Shown: piece after piece, positions 4,221-46,734 of the stretch
How the letters are laid out: the number at the start of each line of letters is the position of its first letter
Position numbering within the stretch: position 1 is the stretch's first letter
IMG/VR virus record: IMGVR_UViG_3300025127_000052
Span: 1 to 52,999 of that record
Length of the DNA: 52,999 nt
Direction: 5' to 3' (one strand)
Origin: a virus
Program-made: the position numbers and the translations under genes
The notes under the pieces: model-generated
Databases searched by the model: none
What the model saw: the letters and a program-made list of their open reading frames with translations, nothing else
Told to the model about the DNA's origin: nothing

Positions 4221-6092
4221 TTAAGTGATTTCACAAGCACCACCAGCACAAGCTGCTTCACCTTTGAGGTCGGTGTTGTCATCCTCTTCAACAATCTTGG
4301 TGAGGTCAACAGAGGCCAGCTTAGAGAGCATAGCTTCGTAGTGTTCTTTGGTACAATCTTCAAACGGAGCCTGCTGATAAGAGCCTCCATCGTATGGAAG
4401 GACTGACAACCCGTTATAGTGGTTGCGGTTGTCCCACATCCACTCGCCAGCATCGGTCCACTCGTTTTCACGTAGCGAGATAGTTGCTGAGACGTTGTGT
4501 CCGTTCTGTCCAGAGCGTTTGCCAGGGTTGACCCATTCTCTTGTAATTTTCTTTACTCGCCGCAAAAGTTGGAACGCACTTTCATCACGCAAGATAGAAC
4601 CTTCGGGTGCTCGTTGGGGCACAGAGATGACGGCTGTATCGTGTGGGCGGAAATACTCATCCTCAACTAGTTCAGGGTGGTGAATGGCAAGGTGCCAATA
4701 GATGGGCTCATTCTTGCCAACACGGATACGACGAATGTAGTAGTCGTTGTGCCAAGCGTGAATACCACTAGACGTGCCAAGTGCCAAGCTGGTTGTTCCT
4801 GCTGGTTTGACGCAGGTTGTGCGAGCAGCCTTGTTGATGCCGATCAACTGAGCGACACGAGCATTCTCTTCCTTGACGACATTGGCGGCAGCAGTCAAAT
4901 CAATGTCATCTGCTAGCACACGACCTGAAGCGATGCCCGTCATGGATACGCCAACCAAGGCGTCCTTCTCAGTGGTTCTTTGCCAGACTGGTCGGAGATA
5001 ATGAAAATCTGTGTAGCCAGCCTGCAGCGTTCCGATAAAGGAAGCGGCACGTACACGATCTTCCAGATCTTGCTGATCCTTAATGTTGCTGACATTTACT
5101 TCGGTCAGATTACAGAACTGGAATGGTCGGAGTCCGATCTCACAGCAAGGGTTGGTTCCCCAATCCTTATCGTTGGACAGGTAGATGCCAGGCTCGCCAG
5201 CGTTGGATGCCTCGACACGCTTCCATAGATCTAGGAAGAATTCTTTTGTTACTTTGTGCCGTAAAAGTACAGCCGAGTTATTGGCTCGTCCTCGCTGTGG
5301 GTTGGTCTCCCACCAGTTGCCAGACTTGGCAGCAATCATTTCCTTGTCACTTGCGGAGAACAAAGAGATAAGAGCAGCACGACGGATACCACCAGCCAAC
5401 ACAGCATCGGCGATATGACACACGATATCATGGACTTCAATAGCCGACAGCCTATCTCCATCATTCTTTTCTGCGAGCACACCCTCAACCTTGACTAAGC
5501 ATTCCTTGAGGGGCTGGGGTCCTGGGGCTTTGCCGCCAGATGTTACAAGGCGAGCACCTTTAGGGCGAATATCGCTATAATCAAATCGTAGCCGTGAGCC
5601 ACCAAAAAAGTAGCTACGGACGAGATACTTAACGGCGTCTGCCCATCCTTCAATACTGTCATTTACTAGATACCTCCGTGTGCGGTTTGGGTTGGGTTTG
5701 CGAATCTCTGGTAGTTCATCAACATGGTGCTGCTGGACTGAGTATCCGACTCCTGTGCCTCCGAGCAACAAAAACATAATTTCACCGAAAACACGCCAAT
5801 CATCAACTGGAGCATACGCACAATTGAAAACTCGGTTGGGTGAAATCTCGATTGGCTTACCGGCGAATTGCATGGAACGCATTGATGGTAGGACTTTTTT
5901 ATCTAATACCATTTTATAAGTGTTAACTATCTCTCCCTTGAGATTGGGATATTTCTTAACATGCATTTCCATGTTGCGGGTGACAAGTTCATCCCACGTT
6001 TCACGGCGCTGCTTCTCTGGAAGATAGCGAGCATACTTCATGTATACTGTGATATCAGATAGGATTTGAGTTGAGATGTCTGTGTTATTCAT
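4221..6092 (-). CDS. nrdJ: adenosylcobalamin-dependent ribonucleoside-triphosphate reductase (class II, monomeric)
   Basis: 623 residues. It converts ribonucleotides to deoxyribonucleotides with a coenzyme B12 radical. The catalytic cysteines match the Lactobacillus leichmannii enzyme pattern: C91 in FNCAY, the radical cysteine in NPCCEIG (residues 313-319), C326 eleven residues after C315, and a C-terminal redox pair C615 and C620 in CAGGACEIT, five apart. The early region YLPEKQRRETWDELVTRNM is also typical. The start overlaps the helicase stop as ATGA. Class II enzymes need no oxygen but need cobalamin, so the phage depends on host B12. Length is a little shorter than the usual 700-740. 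Confidence 0.93.
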   Translation of the reverse strand: MNNTDISTQILSDITVYMKYARYLPEKQRRETWDELVTRNMEMHVKKYPNLKGEIVNTYKMVLDKKVLPSMRSMQFAGKPIEISPNRVFNCAYAPVDDWRVFGEIMFLLLGGTGVGYSVQQHHVDELPEIRKPNPNRTRRYLVNDSIEGWADAVKYLVRSYFFGGSRLRFDYSDIRPKGARLVTSGGKAPGPQPLKECLVKVEGVLAEKNDGDRLSAIEVHDIVCHIADAVLAGGIRRAALISLFSASDKEMIAAKSGNWWETNPQRGRANNSAVLLRHKVTKEFFLDLWKRVEASNAGEPGIYLSNDKDWGTNPCCEIGLRPFQFCNLTEVNVSNIKDQQDLEDRVRAASFIGTLQAGYTDFHYLRPVWQRTTEKDALVGVSMTGIASGRVLADDIDLTAAANVVKEENARVAQLIGINKAARTTCVKPAGTTSLALGTSSGIHAWHNDYYIRRIRVGKNEPIYWHLAIHHPELVEDEYFRPHDTAVISVPQRAPEGSILRDESAFQLLRRVKKITREWVNPGKRSGQNGHNVSATISLRENEWTDAGEWMWDNRNHYNGLSVLPYDGGSYQQAPFEDCTKEHYEAMLSKLASVDLTKIVEEDDNTDLKGEAACAGGACEIT

Positions 6093-10991: not shown

Positions 10992-11022
10992 AAAAAAAAG
11001 AGGGGCTTAGAGCCCCCCTTCT
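10992..11022 (-). terminator. rho-independent terminator after hsp20
   Basis: Stem GGGGCT/AGCCCC (11002-11007 with 11011-11016) with a TAG loop is followed on the minus strand by a run of eight T. It ends the hsp20 transcript ahead of the next promoter. Confidence 0.85.
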
Positions 11023-11044: not shown

Positions 11045-11461
11045 TTATGCGATGTCGATAATCACGGGTTGAGAGGTTGCTTTGCGTGGAACGGTGACGC
11101 TCAGCAGCCCGTTGTGGAACTCAGCAGTGCTAGCCAGAAGATCTAGATTGCTGTCATAGTTCACAAATGTCTTTTGGAAACTACGGCGAGCAATACGTCT
11201 ATTGTTGTCTCCGTCACCGCTTGCTTCCGCACGCACAGTAAGACTGTTTTTTTCTGGTTCGATCTCAATACTGAGATCTTCTTTGTTAAAACCTGCGAGG
11301 GCAAACTCAAGAGTTGTGCTGCCATCTTCGTTCGAAAAGATATCAGCAACAGGATAACCCTGGGTTGACTTTCTCGCTAGTGATTGGAAGTCTCCGAACA
11401 GTTCATCAAAGATGGTGCGTCCGAGAAGACTAGGTGTATTATATCGTACTAAATTGCTCAT
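11045..11461 (-). CDS. hsp20: Hsp20/alpha-crystallin small heat shock protein
   Basis: 138 residues from ATG 11461 (MSNLVRYNTPSLLG). A longer in-frame start would read through the structured leader, and AGGAGG lies seven bases before this ATG. The alpha-crystallin domain spans about 40-130: FALAGFNKEDLSIEIEPEKN, RSFQKTFVNYDSNLDL, and the hallmark NGLLSVTVPR. The C-terminal extension QPVIIDIA contains an I-x-I-like motif for oligomer assembly. It would hold unfolding proteins during infection or heat stress. It is a monocistronic unit with its own promoter, terminator and an RNA-thermometer-like leader. Small heat shock genes are known in cyanophages and other myoviruses. Confidence 0.9.
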   Translation of the reverse strand: MSNLVRYNTPSLLGRTIFDELFGDFQSLARKSTQGYPVADIFSNEDGSTTLEFALAGFNKEDLSIEIEPEKNSLTVRAEASGDGDNNRRIARRSFQKTFVNYDSNLDLLASTAEFHNGLLSVTVPRKATSQPVIIDIA

Positions 11462-11468
11462 GTTATTT

Positions 11469-11487
11469 CCTCCTATAATAAGCAAGG
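11469..11487 (-). promoter_or_regulatory. ROSE-type RNA thermometer hairpin over the hsp20 Shine-Dalgarno
   Basis: On the transcript, CCUUGCU pairs with AGGAGG across a 6-base loop UAUUAU: C-G, C-G, U-A, U-G, bulged G, C-G, U-A. The UUGCU opposite AGGA with a bulged G is the defining motif of ROSE thermometers upstream of small heat shock genes. The whole Shine-Dalgarno is sequestered in a weak stem expected to melt on warming. Confidence 0.7.
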
Positions 11488-11496
11488 TTGTTTTGT

Positions 11497-11513
11497 GGCT
11501 CCCGAAGGCAGCC
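11497..11513 (-). promoter_or_regulatory. UUCG-capped hairpin in the hsp20 leader
   Basis: On the transcript GGCU(G)CC pairs with GGAGCC around a UUCG tetraloop, giving six pairs with one bulged G. It lies ten bases upstream of the thermometer hairpin and resembles the stable accessory stems of ROSE leaders. Confidence 0.6.
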
Positions 11514-11517
11514 GAGT

Positions 11518-11544
11518 TAGCAAGCACCGCACAGCCACTTGCTA
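11518..11544 (-). promoter_or_regulatory. first hairpin of the hsp20 leader
   Basis: A 7-bp perfect stem TAGCAAG/CTTGCTA with a 13-base loop starts at about the expected transcription start. With the two hairpins downstream it makes a three-stem leader of about 80 bases. Confidence 0.55.
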
Positions 11545-11549
11545 TATTA

Positions 11550-11577
11550 AATATATACTAATTTTTTATTTTGTCAA
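11550..11577 (-). promoter_or_regulatory. sigma70-like promoter of hsp20
   Basis: On the minus strand, a perfect -35 TTGACA (11572-11577), a 16-base spacer and -10 TATATT (11550-11555). The expected start near 11543 gives a leader of about 80 bases, matching the three hairpins. Confidence 0.75.
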
Positions 11578-11642: not shown

Positions 11643-12080
11643 TCATTCACCCTCCTCGGGTGGGTCTTCAATTTTGAAGATCTTGCTGACTTCCACTGGA
11701 TGGACTTTCAATTCTCTTCCGGCTGTTAGCAAAATAGAGTTTTCATACTGATCCCAGTCAAGTTTAAGATGCTTGCCAGTTTTGCCGCCGTGCTGTTTTG
11801 CGACAGCTTGATTTAGGGCATTAATAGTGTACAGAGTGTTAGTCTGCTTCTTACGATGCATTCTCATGGTAAACAAACGGGGATTAAATGGCTGGCCAGG
11901 TACCACTAGGGCGTTATAAGTAATAATCTTCTTTTCTGGATCATCCTTGTCCTGCAATAAAAAAATAAGACTATTTGTTATTTCAATATTATTAACAATG
12001 AACTCAACTTCTTCTTGAACTTTTTCGTCGTCTAGCGTTCTCATAAAAGATGCTAGTAAAACCCCACGTTTGTTCGTCAT
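11643..12080 (-). CDS. conserved hypothetical phage protein
   Basis: 145 residues starting MTNKRGVLLASFM, with AAAGGG upstream. The pattern resembles a conserved small phage family of unknown role: an N-terminal VEFIVNNIEI, a middle beta segment (KKIITYNALVVPG), HRKKQTNTLYTINALNQAV, then LDWDQYENSILLTAGRELKV. The TLYTINALN and LDWDxY segments are its most recognisable parts. It is neither membrane-bound nor cysteine-rich. It lies between the hsp20 promoter region and the tubulin-like gene. No function can be assigned. Confidence 0.75.
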   Translation of the reverse strand: MTNKRGVLLASFMRTLDDEKVQEEVEFIVNNIEITNSLIFLLQDKDDPEKKIITYNALVVPGQPFNPRLFTMRMHRKKQTNTLYTINALNQAVAKQHGGKTGKHLKLDWDQYENSILLTAGRELKVHPVEVSKIFKIEDPPEEGE

Positions 12081-12136: not shown

Positions 12137-12994
12137 TTACCTTGTCGCAAAATTCTGGATCTGTGAAGAATACGAAACACACAGCACAATCATATCTTCT
12201 AGGGTTGTTTCATACACAGAGAAACTAGAAGACACTCTCTCTGTTTTGTAGTTTTTAACGTGCTTTTTAATGCGTTTTACAAGCGAGGAATCACTACTTA
12301 AATCGTCCCTGGGAATCCCATAGAAAAAATGTATATCTGTAGGCTCCTCTAAGGGAAACAATAGATTAACATCTTGTTTTTTCTCGTCCAATGATGAAAC
12401 ACCATAAGTTGCGATTCGGGCAGTCCTATGGGGGTTTATCTTATTTGCTAAGACTGGGGCGGTATGGTTGAAGAAATTTATCATAGCTACCACATATGCC
12501 ACAAAATAAGATAGGGTTTTCTCATATTGATCAATAGGAACTTCGCCAGCTAACTCCTCTATCTGCGGTTTGTTAATCAAAAAAATATTACCAAATACTC
12601 CTGAACGGGCATACTCTTGTAAAACATTAAAGGCTATCTTGTCGTCTCTTTTTTGAGTCTCTGATATCATCTGCCTGTCGGGGGCGACGTATAAAACATT
12701 AAGTTTAGCGTGATTAACCGTCTGAAGAATCTTCAGGACAGCCCCAGAAATAGGATCGCCGCCCTCCAAGATCAAAAGAACACTGTCTTTTTTCTTGATA
12801 GAACGCAGATATACCTCGATCTCATCAATGTCTATTTGTGTTTCAAAAGAAGCCATATCCCCAAGATTACCTAGGGACAAACTACCACGCTCGTCAATAT
12901 CTGTATCTATCTTATAAATTCTGTACTCTGGGTAAGCTGTAAGTTCTTCTGCTATTGCGCAGCCCAGCCTACCTAAACCAATAACTTTATCCAA
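12137..12994 (-). CDS. divergent tubulin/FtsZ-like protein (tentative)
   Basis: 285 residues from TTG 12994, with AAGGGC seven bases upstream and an 8-bp overlap with the polymerase gene; no ATG is available. The order of motifs recalls FtsZ: an N-terminal glycine loop (VIGLGRLGCAIAEEL, residues 4-18), a beta strand then GGDPISGAVLKIL (78-90) at the place of the tubulin signature GGGTGSG, LNVLYVAPD, IFLINKPQIEELAG, and a helix before INPHRTARIATYGVSS at the T7-loop position. The signature is degenerate and the T7 Asp pair is missing, so GTP hydrolysis is doubtful. A canonical FtsZ-like protein is encoded at 45598-46734. The assignment rests on pattern alone and may be wrong. Confidence 0.45.
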   Translation of the reverse strand: MDKVIGLGRLGCAIAEELTAYPEYRIYKIDTDIDERGSLSLGNLGDMASFETQIDIDEIEVYLRSIKKKDSVLLILEGGDPISGAVLKILQTVNHAKLNVLYVAPDRQMISETQKRDDKIAFNVLQEYARSGVFGNIFLINKPQIEELAGEVPIDQYEKTLSYFVAYVVAMINFFNHTAPVLANKINPHRTARIATYGVSSLDEKKQDVNLLFPLEEPTDIHFFYGIPRDDLSSDSSLVKRIKKHVKNYKTERVSSSFSVYETTLEDMIVLCVSYSSQIQNFATR

Positions 12995-20018: not shown

Positions 20019-22136
20019 CTATCTCGCCGCCGTTGGATCACCAACCATGTTAAGGGTTTTAACAGTTTGCTTTGCCCATGTGTTGCCATCTACGTTAAGG
20101 GTTACTGGAACTACGATTTCTTGTTGTGTGCGTGTTTGTGGATTTTTCAGGTCCTTCACAACTCGCTGAAAGTCTTTCATAGCTTTATTGGCATCAGAAA
20201 TCTGTTCTTTTTCTTTTGGCTTTGCTTTGCCCATTAGACTCTTCACGCCCTCCCCACCTAGTATACTTCCAAGCCCGCCTAAAACTGCGGCGCCGACAGC
20301 CATTCCAAGAGGACCACCAATCACGCCCAACTTGGCTCCAAGAGCAGCACCAGCAGCACCGCCAGCTAGAGCACCGCCGCCAACTCCGGCAGCACGTCCA
20401 ACCGAACCGGATTCCATATATTCCATACCGCCTGAGATGAGACCACCAAAGGCTGCGCCGCCGACACCACGAGCGATGCCAGCACCAGTTAATCTTGCGG
20501 CGCCAGAACCTGACTTAAGAGCGTTTTTGGCAGCGGCACCGTAAAGTTGTTTTCCTGTTCTTTTGCTGACGACCTTTGCCATGCCTCCTTTACGGAACAT
20601 TGCCCCGCCAGCGCCAGCGGCTCCGGCAGCGCCCATGCCTCGACCTCGAAGGAGTCCGGCAGCACCACGAGCCAAAGCAATAGCCCCTAGTAGGCCCAGT
20701 GCCTGGGGAGCGTAGTCAGCCATGATGCCCACAAGCCTCATGATTCCGCTAGCCATAACAGAAAATACTTCAGCCAAAGGTAGCATGAGAGCTTCCATAG
20801 CTCCGGCTACTCGTTCCTGAACAGTGATAAAGTCATCCATTCTCTTCTCAGGGGTTCGCTGTTGTTGGAACCTGCTGATGTCCATACGGTCTCCCAAGAG
20901 TCGGCGAGCAGATTCCACATCTGTTTGAAGAATCGAAGCAATCATCTGTTGTTGACGACGACCCATAGTATTTATATTTTTGCCCTGTAGAGCAAACTCT
21001 TGGCGTAGGAGTTCTATACGATCCTCCGAACTAGCCTTCATTAATTCAACTGAGTTGAGTTGAAGACCTAGCTGGGCGTTGAGGCGACCAGCTACATTTG
21101 CTGCGCCTTCAAAAGTATCAAAAAGCTCGCTCATGTCAAAAGCCTGCTTTACGCTTAGGCCTAATTCACGAGCCTGGACAGCCAGTTTCTCAAAGACTTT
21201 TAAACCAGATTGTCCAAAACGAGACAATTCGGGTCCAAGAGAATTAAGGTCTTGTATTACAGAGTCGATAGGACGACCTACACGATCGGACAACCGTTCA
21301 ATATCACTAGCCGCTTCCAGGGCAGCGTTACCAGTCATGCCGAAAGCAAAGTTCAAACGATCAAACATTTCAGAGGTAGCCGCCGAATCGGCACCCAATC
21401 TCATAAAACGAGCACTAACTCCAGCAATAGCATTTTGCTGGGTGTCCGATAGCGCATTGAAGCGTGCCATTCCAGTGCTCAGATTTCCGAGGATCTGACC
21501 AGTCTCTTTCATTGTGAGACCTAGGTCTTTATTGGCCCTTTGTACAGCTAAGAGATTATCTTTAAAAGCTGTGCCAGCACCAGTTGTTCGTGCTAATTCA
21601 ACCTGTGTTTCCTTTTGCATGAACATGAAGTCAATCATAGCATTCGCCAGACCCTTCAGGCTGAACATCTGCGATATGTTAGACTTAGTTAACGAATCAA
21701 CAGCACCACCCATACCCTGGAGAATCTTCTTGCGCCTCTCTAGGACTTTGTTAGCTTCCTCTACGGACTTCTTTTCATCTTCTAATGACTTTTGTCGCTT
21801 TTCAAGTTCTTTTTGATTTTCCCTCAAAGCCTTATTTTGAGCTTCAATATCATCTGAGTATTTAAGAATTGCTTTGTCGGTATCCGATAGCAGTTCCTGA
21901 AGCTCTTCATATTCTTTCTTTAGGTCACTAACATCTTCAATGCCAGTCTTCTGGGCAATTTCTAATTTCTTTTGCGCAGCAAGAACAGCTTTAAGGTACT
22001 CTGCCTCATCACCCATCAGCTTAATATATTCTTGCTTGAGTTTGCTTTGCTCTTGGACCAGCTTAGATTGTTCTTTAATAGACTCGTTTAAGTTGTCTAT
22101 TTGTTCCTGCTGTTCCTTAAAATTATCATTAGCCAT
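20019..22136 (-). CDS. tail tape measure protein
   Basis: 705 residues. The first 160 residues are a heptad-rich coiled coil (EQIDNLNESIKEQSKLVQEQ). A helical centre follows, with the typical MQKETQVELARTTGAG segment. Around 480-640 there are hydrophobic and glycine-zipper segments (GALAGGAAGAALGAKLGVIG) that could insert into the host membrane during DNA ejection. The C-terminus is short and polar (VVPVTLNVDGNTWAKQTVKT). Length, composition and place between the tube/baseplate genes define it. At about 1.5 angstrom per residue the tail would be about 100 nm long (inference). Confidence 0.85.
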   Translation of the reverse strand: MANDNFKEQQEQIDNLNESIKEQSKLVQEQSKLKQEYIKLMGDEAEYLKAVLAAQKKLEIAQKTGIEDVSDLKKEYEELQELLSDTDKAILKYSDDIEAQNKALRENQKELEKRQKSLEDEKKSVEEANKVLERRKKILQGMGGAVDSLTKSNISQMFSLKGLANAMIDFMFMQKETQVELARTTGAGTAFKDNLLAVQRANKDLGLTMKETGQILGNLSTGMARFNALSDTQQNAIAGVSARFMRLGADSAATSEMFDRLNFAFGMTGNAALEAASDIERLSDRVGRPIDSVIQDLNSLGPELSRFGQSGLKVFEKLAVQARELGLSVKQAFDMSELFDTFEGAANVAGRLNAQLGLQLNSVELMKASSEDRIELLRQEFALQGKNINTMGRRQQQMIASILQTDVESARRLLGDRMDISRFQQQRTPEKRMDDFITVQERVAGAMEALMLPLAEVFSVMASGIMRLVGIMADYAPQALGLLGAIALARGAAGLLRGRGMGAAGAAGAGGAMFRKGGMAKVVSKRTGKQLYGAAAKNALKSGSGAARLTGAGIARGVGGAAFGGLISGGMEYMESGSVGRAAGVGGGALAGGAAGAALGAKLGVIGGPLGMAVGAAVLGGLGSILGGEGVKSLMGKAKPKEKEQISDANKAMKDFQRVVKDLKNPQTRTQQEIVVPVTLNVDGNTWAKQTVKTLNMVGDPTAAR

Positions 22137-30150: not shown

Positions 30151-31902
30151 TTAGCCAGCTACGTCAGATACCATATCTGCGCAGACTACTAGTCCGTACA
30201 TGTCAGGACGTACCATCTTCTTGGCGTAGCGAGTCATGACTCCCTTACGAGGTACGAAGTCCTCGGTACCAAAAATGGTAGGTGTGACTTGTAGCGGGAC
30301 ATAAGGAGCATATACATAGCCGCTTTCTAGGAAGCTGCTGCCCTTACGACCTACTAGTAGTAGGTTACGTGGGAAGTAAGGATCGACATGAATGTCCATC
30401 TTACGACTAATAGAACCAACGTTATGAACGCCCCAAGAGCCGTCCCTATCATCGACTGCTACCGAAGCACGGAAGCCGCTGGTGAATTCAAGGATGTTGG
30501 CTACTTCTGGAGAGCAGACCAAAAAGTTAGCGCCACCACGTAGTGTCTTACGGTGAATACGAGCACTTACTTCATTGACAGTCTCAAGAAGAGTTTCATA
30601 CCACTCAGAGACAGTGCCGGTAAAATCTGGGTAGATTGTACCATCAACAGGAGCACCTGTCTCACGGTTTAAGAACTTACCTGGGCTACGAGACCAATAC
30701 AATGTACCAGCGGTAGCACCCTTGACGAGATCCTCAAGAATTTCCTGATCGATCTCAAGGGCAACTTGTTCGGATAAGATGCTTGTCAATTCAACTTCAG
30801 CGTCGAGGTTGTGATAAGCATTCAAGTCTTGAGCCAACTCAGGACTCCACTTAGCTTTGAGCTTCTTAGTCAAAGCTGTGACAGCCACGGAATCAACCTT
30901 GATGTCAATTTCTGGAATTTCTGTGTTGTTTTCAAGACCCCAGCCTTGTTCTACGTTACTACCGACGACAGAACCAATAGCCCCACCGTTAGCGAATTCA
31001 TCAGTTATAGGAAAGAATACTTTACTAATTCCCGCTAGAGCAGCGCTAAACTCATCTATGGTACCGCTACCAGCAGTTTGGACGAAAACCATTCGCAAAC
31101 GCTCTTCAACAGAACCAGAGAAGTCGGTCAAGCGACGGACTTGGTGAGCTACACCGCCTGAAGCATAGGTGTAAACACCTGGCTGGGCTGTGCCGCTTTG
31201 GGCTGTCATTGCCACAAAGTCATCAGTGTTAAGACCAGTTGGGATATTATGTCGGGCAACAGCATAGAAACTTGTACCAGAAACAAATACAGGATCAGCA
31301 CGCAAGACCTCAAACAAGTAACCACCTGGTCTTGTAGCGGCGTCACCATAGGTTCCGGAAACTTCAAGTGTAAGACCGTCAGTAGTAGAACTCGTTGGAC
31401 TAGCGTAACCGTTGTTCAAGGTGTAAGCTGAAAGCTGACCGTCATTGCCAGCCAAGCTGACGCCACCTGTCAACTGAGCGCCGACAACGCCACCACCATA
31501 TACTGAAGTATCTGGAGACTGTGCGAGGCGAGCAAGGCTACCACCTGCGGTACTCATCCCACTATCACCCGAAAAGGTGAAATCTAGGAAGAAGATTAGA
31601 CCCGAAGGGAGGCTCATGGGTTGAACGGATACAAGATCCTGAGCCAATAGCTGACCGAATACACGGCGAACGATTGGGAAAGCAACTGCGGAAAAACCTT
31701 CTACGTCGCCACCAGACATTGTGCTGGTTTCTTTGAGGAGTTGGGCTGCCTGATTCTCTAGAAGACGAGCCATATTGGAACGGCCGCTATCATCAAGACC
31801 TTCTAGAAGACCTGTTTTTTGCCACTTCTCAAGAAGGGCTTCACCCTCGTTAGCTAGCGAGCGAGATTTAATTCCTTCTGTTAATGTGTTTAATACAGAC
31901 AT
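30151..31902 (-). CDS. major capsid protein, T4 gp23-like, second tandem copy
   Basis: 583 residues. It shares residues 1-110 (MSVLNTLTEGIKSRSLANEG, RLLENQAAQLLKE) and the last 260 (from WGLENN, EIPEIDIKVDSVAVTALTKK) almost unchanged with the other copy, and differs in 111-323. The shared parts form the HK97-fold shell; the variable part corresponds to an insertion/surface domain. N-terminal sites such as LLE-G and DVE-G could be cut by the prohead protease. No promoter motif is seen between the terminator at 31947-31976 and this gene, so it may be expressed mainly by read-through. It may be a vertex protein (like T4 gp24) or a variant hexamer protein. Confidence 0.88.
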   Translation of the reverse strand: MSVLNTLTEGIKSRSLANEGEALLEKWQKTGLLEGLDDSGRSNMARLLENQAAQLLKETSTMSGGDVEGFSAVAFPIVRRVFGQLLAQDLVSVQPMSLPSGLIFFLDFTFSGDSGMSTAGGSLARLAQSPDTSVYGGGVVGAQLTGGVSLAGNDGQLSAYTLNNGYASPTSSTTDGLTLEVSGTYGDAATRPGGYLFEVLRADPVFVSGTSFYAVARHNIPTGLNTDDFVAMTAQSGTAQPGVYTYASGGVAHQVRRLTDFSGSVEERLRMVFVQTAGSGTIDEFSAALAGISKVFFPITDEFANGGAIGSVVGSNVEQGWGLENNTEIPEIDIKVDSVAVTALTKKLKAKWSPELAQDLNAYHNLDAEVELTSILSEQVALEIDQEILEDLVKGATAGTLYWSRSPGKFLNRETGAPVDGTIYPDFTGTVSEWYETLLETVNEVSARIHRKTLRGGANFLVCSPEVANILEFTSGFRASVAVDDRDGSWGVHNVGSISRKMDIHVDPYFPRNLLLVGRKGSSFLESGYVYAPYVPLQVTPTIFGTEDFVPRKGVMTRYAKKMVRPDMYGLVVCADMVSDVAG

Positions 31903-32005: not shown

Positions 32006-33733
32006 TTAACCAGCGACATCGGATACCATATCTGCGCAGACTACTAGTCCGTACATGTCAGGACGTACCATCTTCTTGGCGTAGCGAGTCATGACTCCCT
32101 TACGAGGTACGAAGTCCTCGGTACCAAAAATGGTAGGTGTGACTTGTAGTGGGACATAAGGAGCGTAGACATATCCACTTTCGAGGAAGCTAGCACCCTT
32201 GCGACCTACTAGTAGCAAGTTACGTGGGAAGTAAGGATCGACGTGAATGTCCATCTTACGACTAATGGAACCTACATTCATGACGCCCCAAGAGCCATCC
32301 TTGTCGTCTACAGCGACGGAAGCACGGAAACCGGAGGTGAATTCAAGAATGTTAGCTACTTCTGGGGAGCAAACTAGGAAGTTAGCACCACCACGTAGTG
32401 TCTTACGGTGAATACGAGCACTTACTTCGTTGACAGTTTCAAGAAGTGTTTCATACCATTCGGAGACAGTACCTGTGAAGTCAGGGTAGTTTACACCAGC
32501 AACAGGAGCACCTGTTTCACGGTTGAGGAACTTACCTGGGCTACGTGACCAGTAAAGCTTACCAGCAGTAGCACCCTTAACAAGGTCTTCAAGGATCTCT
32601 TGATCGATTTCAAGAGCAACCTGCTCGGACAAGATGCTTGTCAACTCAACTTCAGCGTCGAGGTTGTGATAAGCATTCAAATCTTGAGCTAGTTCTGGTG
32701 ACCACTTAGCTTTGAGCTTCTTGGTCAACGCTGTAACAGCCACGGAATCGACCTTGATGTCAATTTCTGGGATAGCTGCGTTGTTCTCAAGACCCCAAGG
32801 GGTAGCACCTACGACAGAGCCGATAGAACTGCCCTGATTGAAGACGTCCACGATTGGGAATGTGAGACCAGTTGTAACTTCTACAGAAGCACTCAACTGA
32901 TCAGGGGTTGCTGTGGAAGCAAAGACCATGTTAAGTGTTGTTTCGCTAGAACCAGAGAAGTCGGTCAAGCGACGTACTTGGAAACCATCTTTGACCAAAC
33001 CACCAGCAGCAGTACCACTGAGGACAGTCATAGCAACTAGATCGTCCATGTTTTGGTTTGTTTGTTTCTCCAGGGTACCAACAAGATATGTTGTTGTACC
33101 AGAGATGAAAGATGGATCAGCACGCAAAATGGTGAACAAAGATCCGCCTGGGCGGGTTTGAGTATCACCATATGTACCAGAAGCCTGAATTGTAACTACG
33201 CCACCAGCAACTGTTACTGATGCTGTTGGACTAGCGTAACCGTTGTTCAAGGTGTAAGCTGAAAGCTGACCATTGTTGTCAGCCAAATCAATACCACCTG
33301 TGATTTGAGCACCGACTTTGCCACCACCGTAAAGTGAGGTACCAAGACGCTGAGCAAGACGGTCACCGTTGGCGTTGGCGCCGTTGTTACCGTTTTCAGA
33401 ACCAAAGGTGAAATCTAGGAAGAAGATTAGACCGCTTGGTAGGGACATTGGTTGAACGGATACAAGATCCTGAGCCAATAGTTGACCGAATACACGGCGA
33501 ACGATTGGGAAAGCAACTGCGGAGAAGCCTTCGACATCTCCACCAGACATTGTGCTGGTTTCTTTTAGAAGCTGAGCAGCTTGGTTTTCTAGAAGACGAG
33601 CCATGTTAGAACGACCGTTGTCGTCAAGACCCTCTAGAAGACCTGTACGCTCCCACTTCTCTAGTAGAGCTTCACCTTCATTGGCAAGAGAGCGTGCTCT
33701 AATACCTTCGGTGAGTTGGTTAAGTACAGACAT
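32006..33733 (-). CDS. major capsid protein, T4 gp23-like, first tandem copy
   Basis: 575 residues. The N-terminal segment (ALLEKWERTGLLEGLDDNGR, RLLENQAAQLLKE) precedes SAVAFPIVRRVFGQLLAQDL and SVQPMSLPSGLIFFLDF, the same order as T4 gp23. The C-terminal region with EFTSGFRASVAVDD, KMDIHVDPYFPRNLLLVGRK and APYVPLQVTP completes the shell domain. It immediately follows the scaffold gene (AAAGGAG, gap 18 bp) and is probably the main hexamer protein. Residues about 111-318 vary from the second copy. Codon sequence of the shared ends is nearly identical between copies, with over 120 identical bases at the 3' end. Confidence 0.92.
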   Translation of the reverse strand: MSVLNQLTEGIRARSLANEGEALLEKWERTGLLEGLDDNGRSNMARLLENQAAQLLKETSTMSGGDVEGFSAVAFPIVRRVFGQLLAQDLVSVQPMSLPSGLIFFLDFTFGSENGNNGANANGDRLAQRLGTSLYGGGKVGAQITGGIDLADNNGQLSAYTLNNGYASPTASVTVAGGVVTIQASGTYGDTQTRPGGSLFTILRADPSFISGTTTYLVGTLEKQTNQNMDDLVAMTVLSGTAAGGLVKDGFQVRRLTDFSGSSETTLNMVFASTATPDQLSASVEVTTGLTFPIVDVFNQGSSIGSVVGATPWGLENNAAIPEIDIKVDSVAVTALTKKLKAKWSPELAQDLNAYHNLDAEVELTSILSEQVALEIDQEILEDLVKGATAGKLYWSRSPGKFLNRETGAPVAGVNYPDFTGTVSEWYETLLETVNEVSARIHRKTLRGGANFLVCSPEVANILEFTSGFRASVAVDDKDGSWGVMNVGSISRKMDIHVDPYFPRNLLLVGRKGASFLESGYVYAPYVPLQVTPTIFGTEDFVPRKGVMTRYAKKMVRPDMYGLVVCADMVSDVAG

Positions 33734-45597: not shown

Positions 45598-46734
45598 TTA
45601 TTTCTTTAGAAACTTTTTAAGACCCTCGATACGTTTTGCTGGGCGCTTCAGCCCACTGACCAGGGTGTAAGTTACAAGCTTGTCCTTTTTATCATCCTCA
45701 TAAATGCCACGGTGAACCATGGCACCACCAGTCAAAGCAGCCAATGTATCGAAACCAAATTCAATGTTATCCATCAAGCCAACAGTCTCTTCAAAGATCT
45801 CTTCGCTACCAACAACAATACAAGCAGCACCTGTAGCAGTTGTCAAGTCGAAACCTTCAGCAAGAAGTGTTTTCTCTAGATTCTTTTTAAGAGCACTGGA
45901 GACAGCAGTTTCGTTTTCAAGGTTCTTAACGCTGGTAACACCCATAATCATACAGCCTGGTTGTTTCATAATACTGTCGTAATCAGTAGCATCAAAGGTC
46001 GTGTATTCTGAGTCTTGGTTTGCCAGGACGTTGAAGACATGAAACAAGCCGGCGACTGTATTGTTGATTGTTGTCCAGAACTTTTTGACTGTGAGTTTTG
46101 GATATAGTTTTTTAATCTTTTCATTGTCCACCATAATAAGGGGAGCAATCTTTCCTTTTTCTGCGAGCCCGCAAAGTTGGGTGATGCGAGCATGAGCATT
46201 CTTGGCTACCGTTGGGGAAGCTGATTCGCCAGCAGTTGGAAGGGAAGCAATGACACCAACACGCTCATCAACGTTCTCAACGCCGATGTAGGTAAAGTAC
46301 TTCTTGGCTACTTTGATCAGAGTGTTGACTGTGCCGCCACCTGAACCGCCAGATACACCAAGACAAATCAAGATGCGATCAACGTTGCTGCCGAATACTT
46401 CACGGAATTTGTTGAACACTTCTTGTTCTTTGCGCTCAATAGCTGCTTCGGCTTTGGCTTGGTCTTTACCAGCACCTTGGTCGCCGTGCTCATCCACCAA
46501 AAACTTTTGTTCTTCAGGGATGTCAAGACCATTAAGATCAGAGCGGGCAGTGTTGACTGCTAGCATTTTTGTATAGCCCATGTCATAAAATGCTTTAGCA
46601 ATGCGTCCGCCGCCTTGACCAGCGCCGACAATGGCATAAGTTAAAGCACCACCTGATTTGTCTTCAACCGTTTCCTGTTCCTCGTTGAGGTCTGGATCGT
46701 AATCTTCGATGTCTAGTGTAGGAATGTCTACCAT
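45598..46734 (-). CDS. FtsZ/tubulin-like GTPase
   Basis: 378 residues. The tubulin-superfamily elements are in order: N-terminal loop VGAGQGGGRIAKAF (36-49), tubulin signature SGGSGGGT (128-135), and T7 loop FDATDYDSIMKQPGCMIMG (247-265) with the D-x-x-D needed to trigger GTP hydrolysis. The C-terminal domain ends with IVVGSEE and LVSGLKRPAKR, followed by a basic tail, much like FtsZ. The first 28 residues are acidic. It lies among lysis-like genes and upstream of packaging genes. Phage tubulins (PhuZ) position DNA in some jumbo phages, and FtsZ-like proteins may also interfere with host division; which applies is open. Confidence 0.85.
   Translation of the reverse strand: MVDIPTLDIEDYDPDLNEEQETVEDKSGGALTYAIVGAGQGGGRIAKAFYDMGYTKMLAVNTARSDLNGLDIPEEQKFLVDEHGDQGAGKDQAKAEAAIERKEQEVFNKFREVFGSNVDRILICLGVSGGSGGGTVNTLIKVAKKYFTYIGVENVDERVGVIASLPTAGESASPTVAKNAHARITQLCGLAEKGKIAPLIMVDNEKIKKLYPKLTVKKFWTTINNTVAGLFHVFNVLANQDSEYTTFDATDYDSIMKQPGCMIMGVTSVKNLENETAVSSALKKNLEKTLLAEGFDLTTATGAACIVVGSEEIFEETVGLMDNIEFGFDTLAALTGGAMVHRGIYEDDKKDKLVTYTLVSGLKRPAKRIEGLKKFLKK

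Follow-up and report, generated by a model that had tools for sequence, protein, structure and literature searches.

ROSE-like RNA thermometers are recognized by a hallmark pairing, U(U/C)GCU/AGGA with a bulged G (PMC3669281, PMC11182007), and for ibpA of Pseudomonas the function of this hallmark, including the roles of the bulged G and of a U-G pair, has been published (PMC3669281). The known phage RNA thermometers are those of lambda cIII, SPbeta blyA (fourU, PMC10586365) and a gut phage sigma-70 (fourU, PMC11182007). Here we describe the 5' leader of an hsp20 gene in a 52,999-nucleotide stretch of viral DNA (positions 1 to 52,999 of IMG/VR record IMGVR_UViG_3300025127_000052; hereafter, the window) which, judging from sequence comparison, is probably a cis-acting, translational, ROSE-like RNA thermometer. 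The leader resembles the known phage thermometers in its presumed thermosensitive control of translation in phage mRNA; those, unlike the hsp20 leader, are not ROSE elements, act on other genes and have not been reported group-wide. It is also similar to the cyanobacterial hsp17 thermometer (PMC4477652) in that a small heat shock protein (sHSP) gene is served and the ribosome-binding site would be masked, whereas the phage leaders have two or three hairpins plus the UUGCU motif. The ibpA ROSE-like elements (RF01832 ROSE_2 in E. coli and the short type in Pseudomonas, PMC3669281) are likewise short sHSP leaders in which a stable hairpin lies upstream of a Shine-Dalgarno (SD) hairpin that contains U(U/C)GCU together with a bulged G. 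The phage leaders differ from these in having a sigma-70 or late-type promoter instead of the sigma-32 promoter of ibpA, a tetraloop-capped bulged-G hairpin UGCC..GG, sub-threshold Rfam scores and, in the window's clade, an additional 5' hairpin.

The hsp20 gene of the window (11045..11461, minus strand; ATG at 11461, stop at 11045) encodes a protein of 138 amino acids that belongs to the Hsp20 family by PF00011 (E=1.2e-9) and phrog_432 (E=1.4e-15) and carries an arginine equivalent to R93 of E. coli IbpA. A promoter scan detected a sigma-70-type promoter on the same strand, with a -35 box TTGACA (11572..11577) and, after a 16-nt spacer, a -10 box TATATT (11550..11555), the two boxes together giving 11/12 matches; the same scan placed an intrinsic terminator 3' of the gene (10996..11022, minus strand), so that a single-gene transcript is likely. 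The position of the -10 box and the conservation among relatives put the transcription start near 11543, by inference, and delimit a leader of 82 nt (11462..11543, minus strand). The perfect -35 box and the leader of about 80 bases with three hairpins that had been noticed in the first-pass annotation, made from the sequence alone, were thus borne out.

Hairpin I (11519..11543, minus strand) consists of AGCAAGUG and UGCUUGCU, with AGCAAG..CUUGCU pairing, and is confined to the window's clade. Hairpin II (11497..11513, minus strand) has the form GGCU(G)CC-UUCG-GGAGCC, with a bulged G and a tetraloop cap, does not include the SD and is common across phages; it corresponds to the adjoining UUCG-capped stem of the first-pass annotation. 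The last hairpin, CCUU(G)CU-UAUUAU-AGGAGG (11469..11487, minus strand), would sequester the SD sequence AGGAGG (11469..11474, minus strand) and is ROSE-like, with the bulged G at 11483 and the UUGCU/AGGA pairing spanning 11485-11471; the pairing of CCUUGCU with AGGAGG around a UAUUAU loop, noticed in the first-pass annotation, is present at 11487-11469. Four consecutive U opposite the SD, the defining feature of fourU elements, are not present, the anti-SD being CCUUGCU. The leader combines the hallmark motif with three hairpins, the SD in the last of them, and a heat shock (sHSP) gene context, as in the ROSE-like class, in which two to four hairpins are usual. Within the window's clade, hairpin I is the best-conserved part of the leader (97% identity), with a nearly invariant loop GGCUGUGCGG; it is absent from other phages.

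Taken alone, the window provides only moderate evidence that its SD hairpin exceeds chance, since a comparable bulged-G SD hairpin arises in 7.6% of dinucleotide shuffles of the upstream sequence when the SD is held fixed. Across the family, the conservation of this hairpin is far beyond chance. The set of leaders that we compared comes from Hsp20 genes at 50-60% identity (loci L062 and L087-L093), from phages annotated as Kyanoviridae (S-RSM4, S-WAM2, MA01, S-N03, P-TIM40, Melnitz-3, S-CREM2 and MED4-213 among this group) and from nearly 80 further IMG/VR loci. The simple pattern U[UC]GC[UC]..[AG]GGA is present in 87/89 distinct 60-nt stretches. Under a register-free rule that demands a bulged-G SD hairpin plus at least 3 outer pairs, 93 of the 94 distinct phage hsp20 leaders, cyanophages included, contain the hairpin, compared to 1.6% of shuffles; these leaders serve Hsp20 genes as distant as ~30% identity, and most phage leaders have two hairpins, with the SD located in the last one. 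Applied blindly to 250 other reading frames with an SD and an ATG, the rule returned 13, namely, E. coli ibpA and ibpB, further phage sHSPs, phage dnaK leaders, two frames that had been fetched by the pattern and a single site attributed to chance, which in the window is a start inside the open reading frame 20019-22136; with heat shock and pattern-fetched genes excluded, about 1/240 SD+ATG genes in the fetched DNA pass. In most of the loci L021-L027, which are marine phage hsp20 genes, an upstream bulged-G-like hairpin (CUUUGCGCC-ACAAC-GGGCAAAG) was observed and the SD hairpin was not found; possibly, this is a lineage that lost the switch.

Compensatory changes in related phage leaders, named in the first-pass annotation as the evidence to look for, are abundant, and the UUGCU-AGGA pairing is conserved. 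Leader identity is ~80-97% across 14 close relatives, and most of the preceding 200 nt are 8-67% identical. Promoters and upstream genes were exchanged and the leader was retained. The pairing in hairpin I survives a change from AGCAAG/CUUGC to AGUAAG/CUUAC (L015, L017), and that in hairpin II is kept through a change from GACU/AGUC to GGCU/AGCC among close relatives. A possible role of the 5' AGCAAG as an anti-anti-SD that frees the SD is not supported, the changes in L015 and L017 tracking the hairpin I partner and not the anti-SD. With 39 non-redundant leaders aligned by MAFFT as its only input, RNAalifold recovers the two hairpins unaided, leaves the G of the SD hairpin (alignment column 51) unpaired and finds compensatory double changes in 6/10 pairs; in hairpin II, 6/7 pairs show double changes among the 39 leaders. 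For the 12-pair structure, 90.1% of the cells are paired versus 75.7% in shuffled alignments, and 75 cells show double changes versus 29, with 0/500 shuffles matching either statistic; slid along the alignment, the structure is at most 57% paired. The pair adjoining the U(U/C)GCU core is C-G, G-C or A-U and is formed in 20/20 cases versus 9.8 after shuffling, a count to be read together with the RNAalifold and 12-pair tests because the registers were chosen for pairing.

Specificity and INDEPENDENCE were gauged with two covariance models, R1, built from phage leaders, and R2, built from 10 cyanophage leaders only. In 12/12 complete cyanophage and Kyanoviridae genomes (141-195 kb), R1 has a single match, always at hsp20, and in the window it has one match as well (11461-11518, 50.6 bits). 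R2 finds the window's leader (11467-11518, 22 bits, E 3e-4) as its sole match in 53 kb, and also matches the window-clade members L003 (E 3e-6) and L016 (E 6e-7) and the bacterial sHSP leader L211 (E 3e-8). Outside its training set, R1 recovers two phage dnaK leaders, in L063 (E 2e-7) and L064 (E 2e-5). These ROSE-like dnaK leaders (L063:13817-13877 and L064:1587-1642, both on the minus strand) lie behind a late-type promoter (TATAAATA/TAAATA) in phage-like contigs with clpP/clpS-like or clpX-like genes, and L063 additionally has an hsp20 gene with a ROSE-like leader (11820-11881). UUGCU..AGGAGG occurrences at unrelated phage genes (L060, L061, L065-L069), which came from a loose pattern scan, were dismissed as coincidental; among these sites, R1 reaches E<=1 only for L066 and L069 (E 0.86).

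The bulged-G motif occurs twice in the leader. The core of hairpin II, Y-(G)-C-Y / R-G-purine with one unpaired G, is the same as in the SD hairpin, as exemplified by GUGAU(G)CC-UAAC-GGGUCAC in S-RSM4, GUGAUC(G)CC-UUCG-GGGAUCAC in P-TIM40 and AGAAAUU(G)CU..AGGAUUUCU in L087, and its loops interchange among UUCG, UAAC, GAAA and GCAA. Because hairpin II retains this core without containing the SD, the SD cannot explain the retention of the motif there. The upstream hairpin of E. coli ibpA contains one bulged G as well, according to the Rfam model.

In bacteria, a strict pattern yielded one match in a scan of 84,980 genomes, at an sHSP gene of an alphaproteobacterial metagenome-assembled genome. 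Among 289 genomes of the alphaproteobacterial class of L187, R1 matched 14, and 13 of these matches precede heat shock genes (8 sHSP, 3 dnaK and 2 rpoH); in a phylum sample, 3/399 genomes matched, and the sole previously unseen match is not at a heat shock gene. The matches at L217 (antisense within an open reading frame) and L222 (before a non-heat-shock gene) were judged to be false positives. In one alphaproteobacterial order with genomes of 1.0-1.5 Mb, probably SAR11-like judging from their size and sequence, R1 matched 135/197 genomes; 28 of the best 30 loci were readable, and all 28 precede sHSP genes. Small alphaproteobacterial genomes thus have unannotated ROSE-like leaders ahead of sHSP, dnaK and rpoH (L208-L221, L223-L252); the Rfam ROSE models gave no match on the 14 bacterial leaders tested. 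The alphaproteobacterial leaders (L208-L252) are similar to those of the phages in their two bulged-G hairpins and the spacing between them and differ in belonging to cellular genes, with the sHSP leaders mostly directly behind a CTTGAA..CCCAT promoter. This sigma-32-like promoter lies upstream in 20/29 bacterial leaders, as in E. coli ibpA, whereas the phage hsp20 promoters are sigma-70-like or, in 39/87 cases, T4-late-like (TATAAATA, TAAATA). Hence, so far as the sequences tell, the RNA leader is common to phages and bacteria and the promoter differs, and since the phage promoter is of the sigma-70 or T4-late type, not the heat shock type, it seems to be the RNA that provides the regulation.

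Under the thermometer reading, which the 93/94 leaders, the covarying flanking pairs, the match of R2 to the window and the matches of R1 to bacterial heat shock leaders all support, a constitutive sigma-70-type promoter would produce a short monocistronic hsp20 mRNA. In the nascent RNA, hairpin II would fold first as a stable scaffold, after which CCUU(G)CU would capture the SD in a hairpin kept weak by the bulged G, the U-G pair and the small number of pairs, so that Hsp20 would be produced in small amounts; once this hairpin opened, on warming or under other conditions, AGGAGG would be free for the ribosome. We infer the masking of the SD in vivo, the response to temperature and the range of switching.

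Several observations weigh against this reading. For phages of the open ocean, temperature swings are small. The Rfam ROSE models, which the first-pass annotation had proposed to apply, do not match the window at the gathering threshold or even at E<=10, while E. coli ibpA, included as a positive control, scores 100 bits. Other phages come closer: ROSE_3 or ROSE_2 weakly match three phage leaders in the correct place (L100, L102 and L098), the RF02523 ROSE_3 matches having E 0.0019 for Methylophilales phage Melnitz-3 and E 0.034 for cyanophage MED4-213; all these matches are below gathering, and no phage leader tested reaches the gathering score of the Rfam ROSE models. Given these sub-threshold scores, we file the leader as a ROSE-like variant outside RF00435, RF01832 and RF02523; the missing match lowers membership in these three families, not in the wider ROSE-like class. 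Folding with Vienna, which the first-pass annotation had suggested over 15-45 C, forms the SD hairpin in the leader alone, as proposed, with little melting, and for the majority of the phage leaders it keeps this hairpin mostly closed at temperatures up to 50 C. For E. coli ibpA, a proven thermometer, Vienna likewise predicts no melting; thus, Vienna cannot judge the temperature response, and the temperature series was discarded as an uninformative test of thermosensing. With the first codons included, the SD hairpin no longer stands: once at least 9 coding bases, that is, the third codon, are present, the minimum free energy structure of the window is an 8-bp helix (11454..11485, minus strand) between UUGCUUAU (11485-11478) and AUGAGCAA (11461-11454), with a probability of ~0.99 at 15-45 C, which would bury the AUG and leave the SD unpaired in a loop. 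Going by these predicted folds, the SD hairpin and the AUG-burying helix would both mask initiation. The window's clade might then control hsp20 through the start codon, with the anti-SD strand pairing mainly with AUGAGCAA, closer to cyanobacterial hsp17, in which two stems of a single hairpin hold the start codon and the ribosome-binding site, than to ROSE. In accord with this, codons 3-5 show no synonymous change in the clade and codon 2 little, yet 8/128 codon windows are equally invariant. The members of the window's clade and some near relatives could form the helix, but it was not found in the cyanophage leaders or in L090, L092 and L093, and the preference of Vienna for it is weaker in L003 and L018; furthermore, the SD hairpin would be expected to form first during transcription. 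Altogether, we consider start-codon masking unlikely.

A possible, albeit less probable, alternative to the thermometer is chaperone feedback, by analogy with IbpA, which in gamma-proteobacteria represses its own mRNA via the 5' untranslated region in a manner that requires Arg93 (PMC10474464). Hsp20 would bind its own ROSE-like leader and repress translation until titrated by misfolded protein, for example, capsid protein, with temperature being secondary. The Arg93 equivalent is invariant in all aligned phage Hsp20s, with Q in its place in E. coli IbpB; hsp20 belongs to the cyanophage core genes and has a suggested role in capsid maturation (PMC3037559); and the phage-built model also matches dnaK and rpoH leaders. 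The arginine is, however, present also in phage Hsp20s without the SD hairpin (L022-L027), and may therefore be common to sHSPs in general. Given the invariance of this mRNA-binding residue of IbpA, a thermometer that is additionally under Hsp20 feedback is possible. The stronger proposal, that marine T4-like phages use a ROSE switch without a heat shock promoter chiefly as a proteostasis sensor, such that self-repression by Hsp20 is relieved by misfolded virion protein and the amount of chaperone is set by assembly load, not by temperature, appears doubtful. Constitutive hairpins that merely protect the 5' end or fix the translation rate would fit the stable tetraloop hairpin close to the 5' end but would not account for the lack of variation in the bulged G and in the U(U/C)GCU facing the SD, or for the confinement to heat shock genes in bacteria, and we regard this option as quite improbable. 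Chance complementarity to a strong SD, which the shuffles of the window alone would allow, is refuted by the family conservation and covariation, the single match per genome and the held-out R2 model, leaving it a negligible probability.

The window represents part of the genome of a T4-like phage and encodes the gp23 capsid protein, UvsX, gp32 and the large terminase, the latter ~45% identical to those of Flavobacterium phage immuto and Microcystis phage Mel-JY01; the SD-bearing starts of the window would argue against a flavobacterial host. The two genes beside hsp20 (11643-12080 and 12137-12994, minus strand) matched no Pfam or PHROG family. Elsewhere, the minus strand carries two tandem gp23-type major capsid genes (30151-31902 and 32006-33733) that are 80% identical, with a variable middle and near-identical ends, a class II (B12-dependent) ribonucleotide reductase (4221-6092) and, notably for a T4-like phage, a tubulin-family GTPase of the TubZ/FtsZ-like type whose C-terminal domain is TubZ-like (45598-46734).

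Regulators of the ROSE-like kind are already known; the phage-wide occurrence and the twin-hairpin architecture appear to be new. In the literature searched, with most subscription journals outside it, we found no paper linking phage hsp20 to an RNA thermometer and only the three phage thermometers mentioned above (PMC10586365, PMC11182007), none of them ROSE and none common to a phage group. Public RNA databases do not flag this putative hsp20 switch, widespread as it is in marine T4-like phages, and R1 reveals a large number of ROSE-like leaders that lack annotation, at sHSP, dnaK and rpoH genes, in small alphaproteobacterial genomes. For the phages themselves, a single RNA switch would guard hsp20, which is among the core genes of cyanobacterial T4-like phages, and because this switch is present in isolates that can be cultured in the laboratory, the role and the timing of the phage Hsp20 become directly testable.
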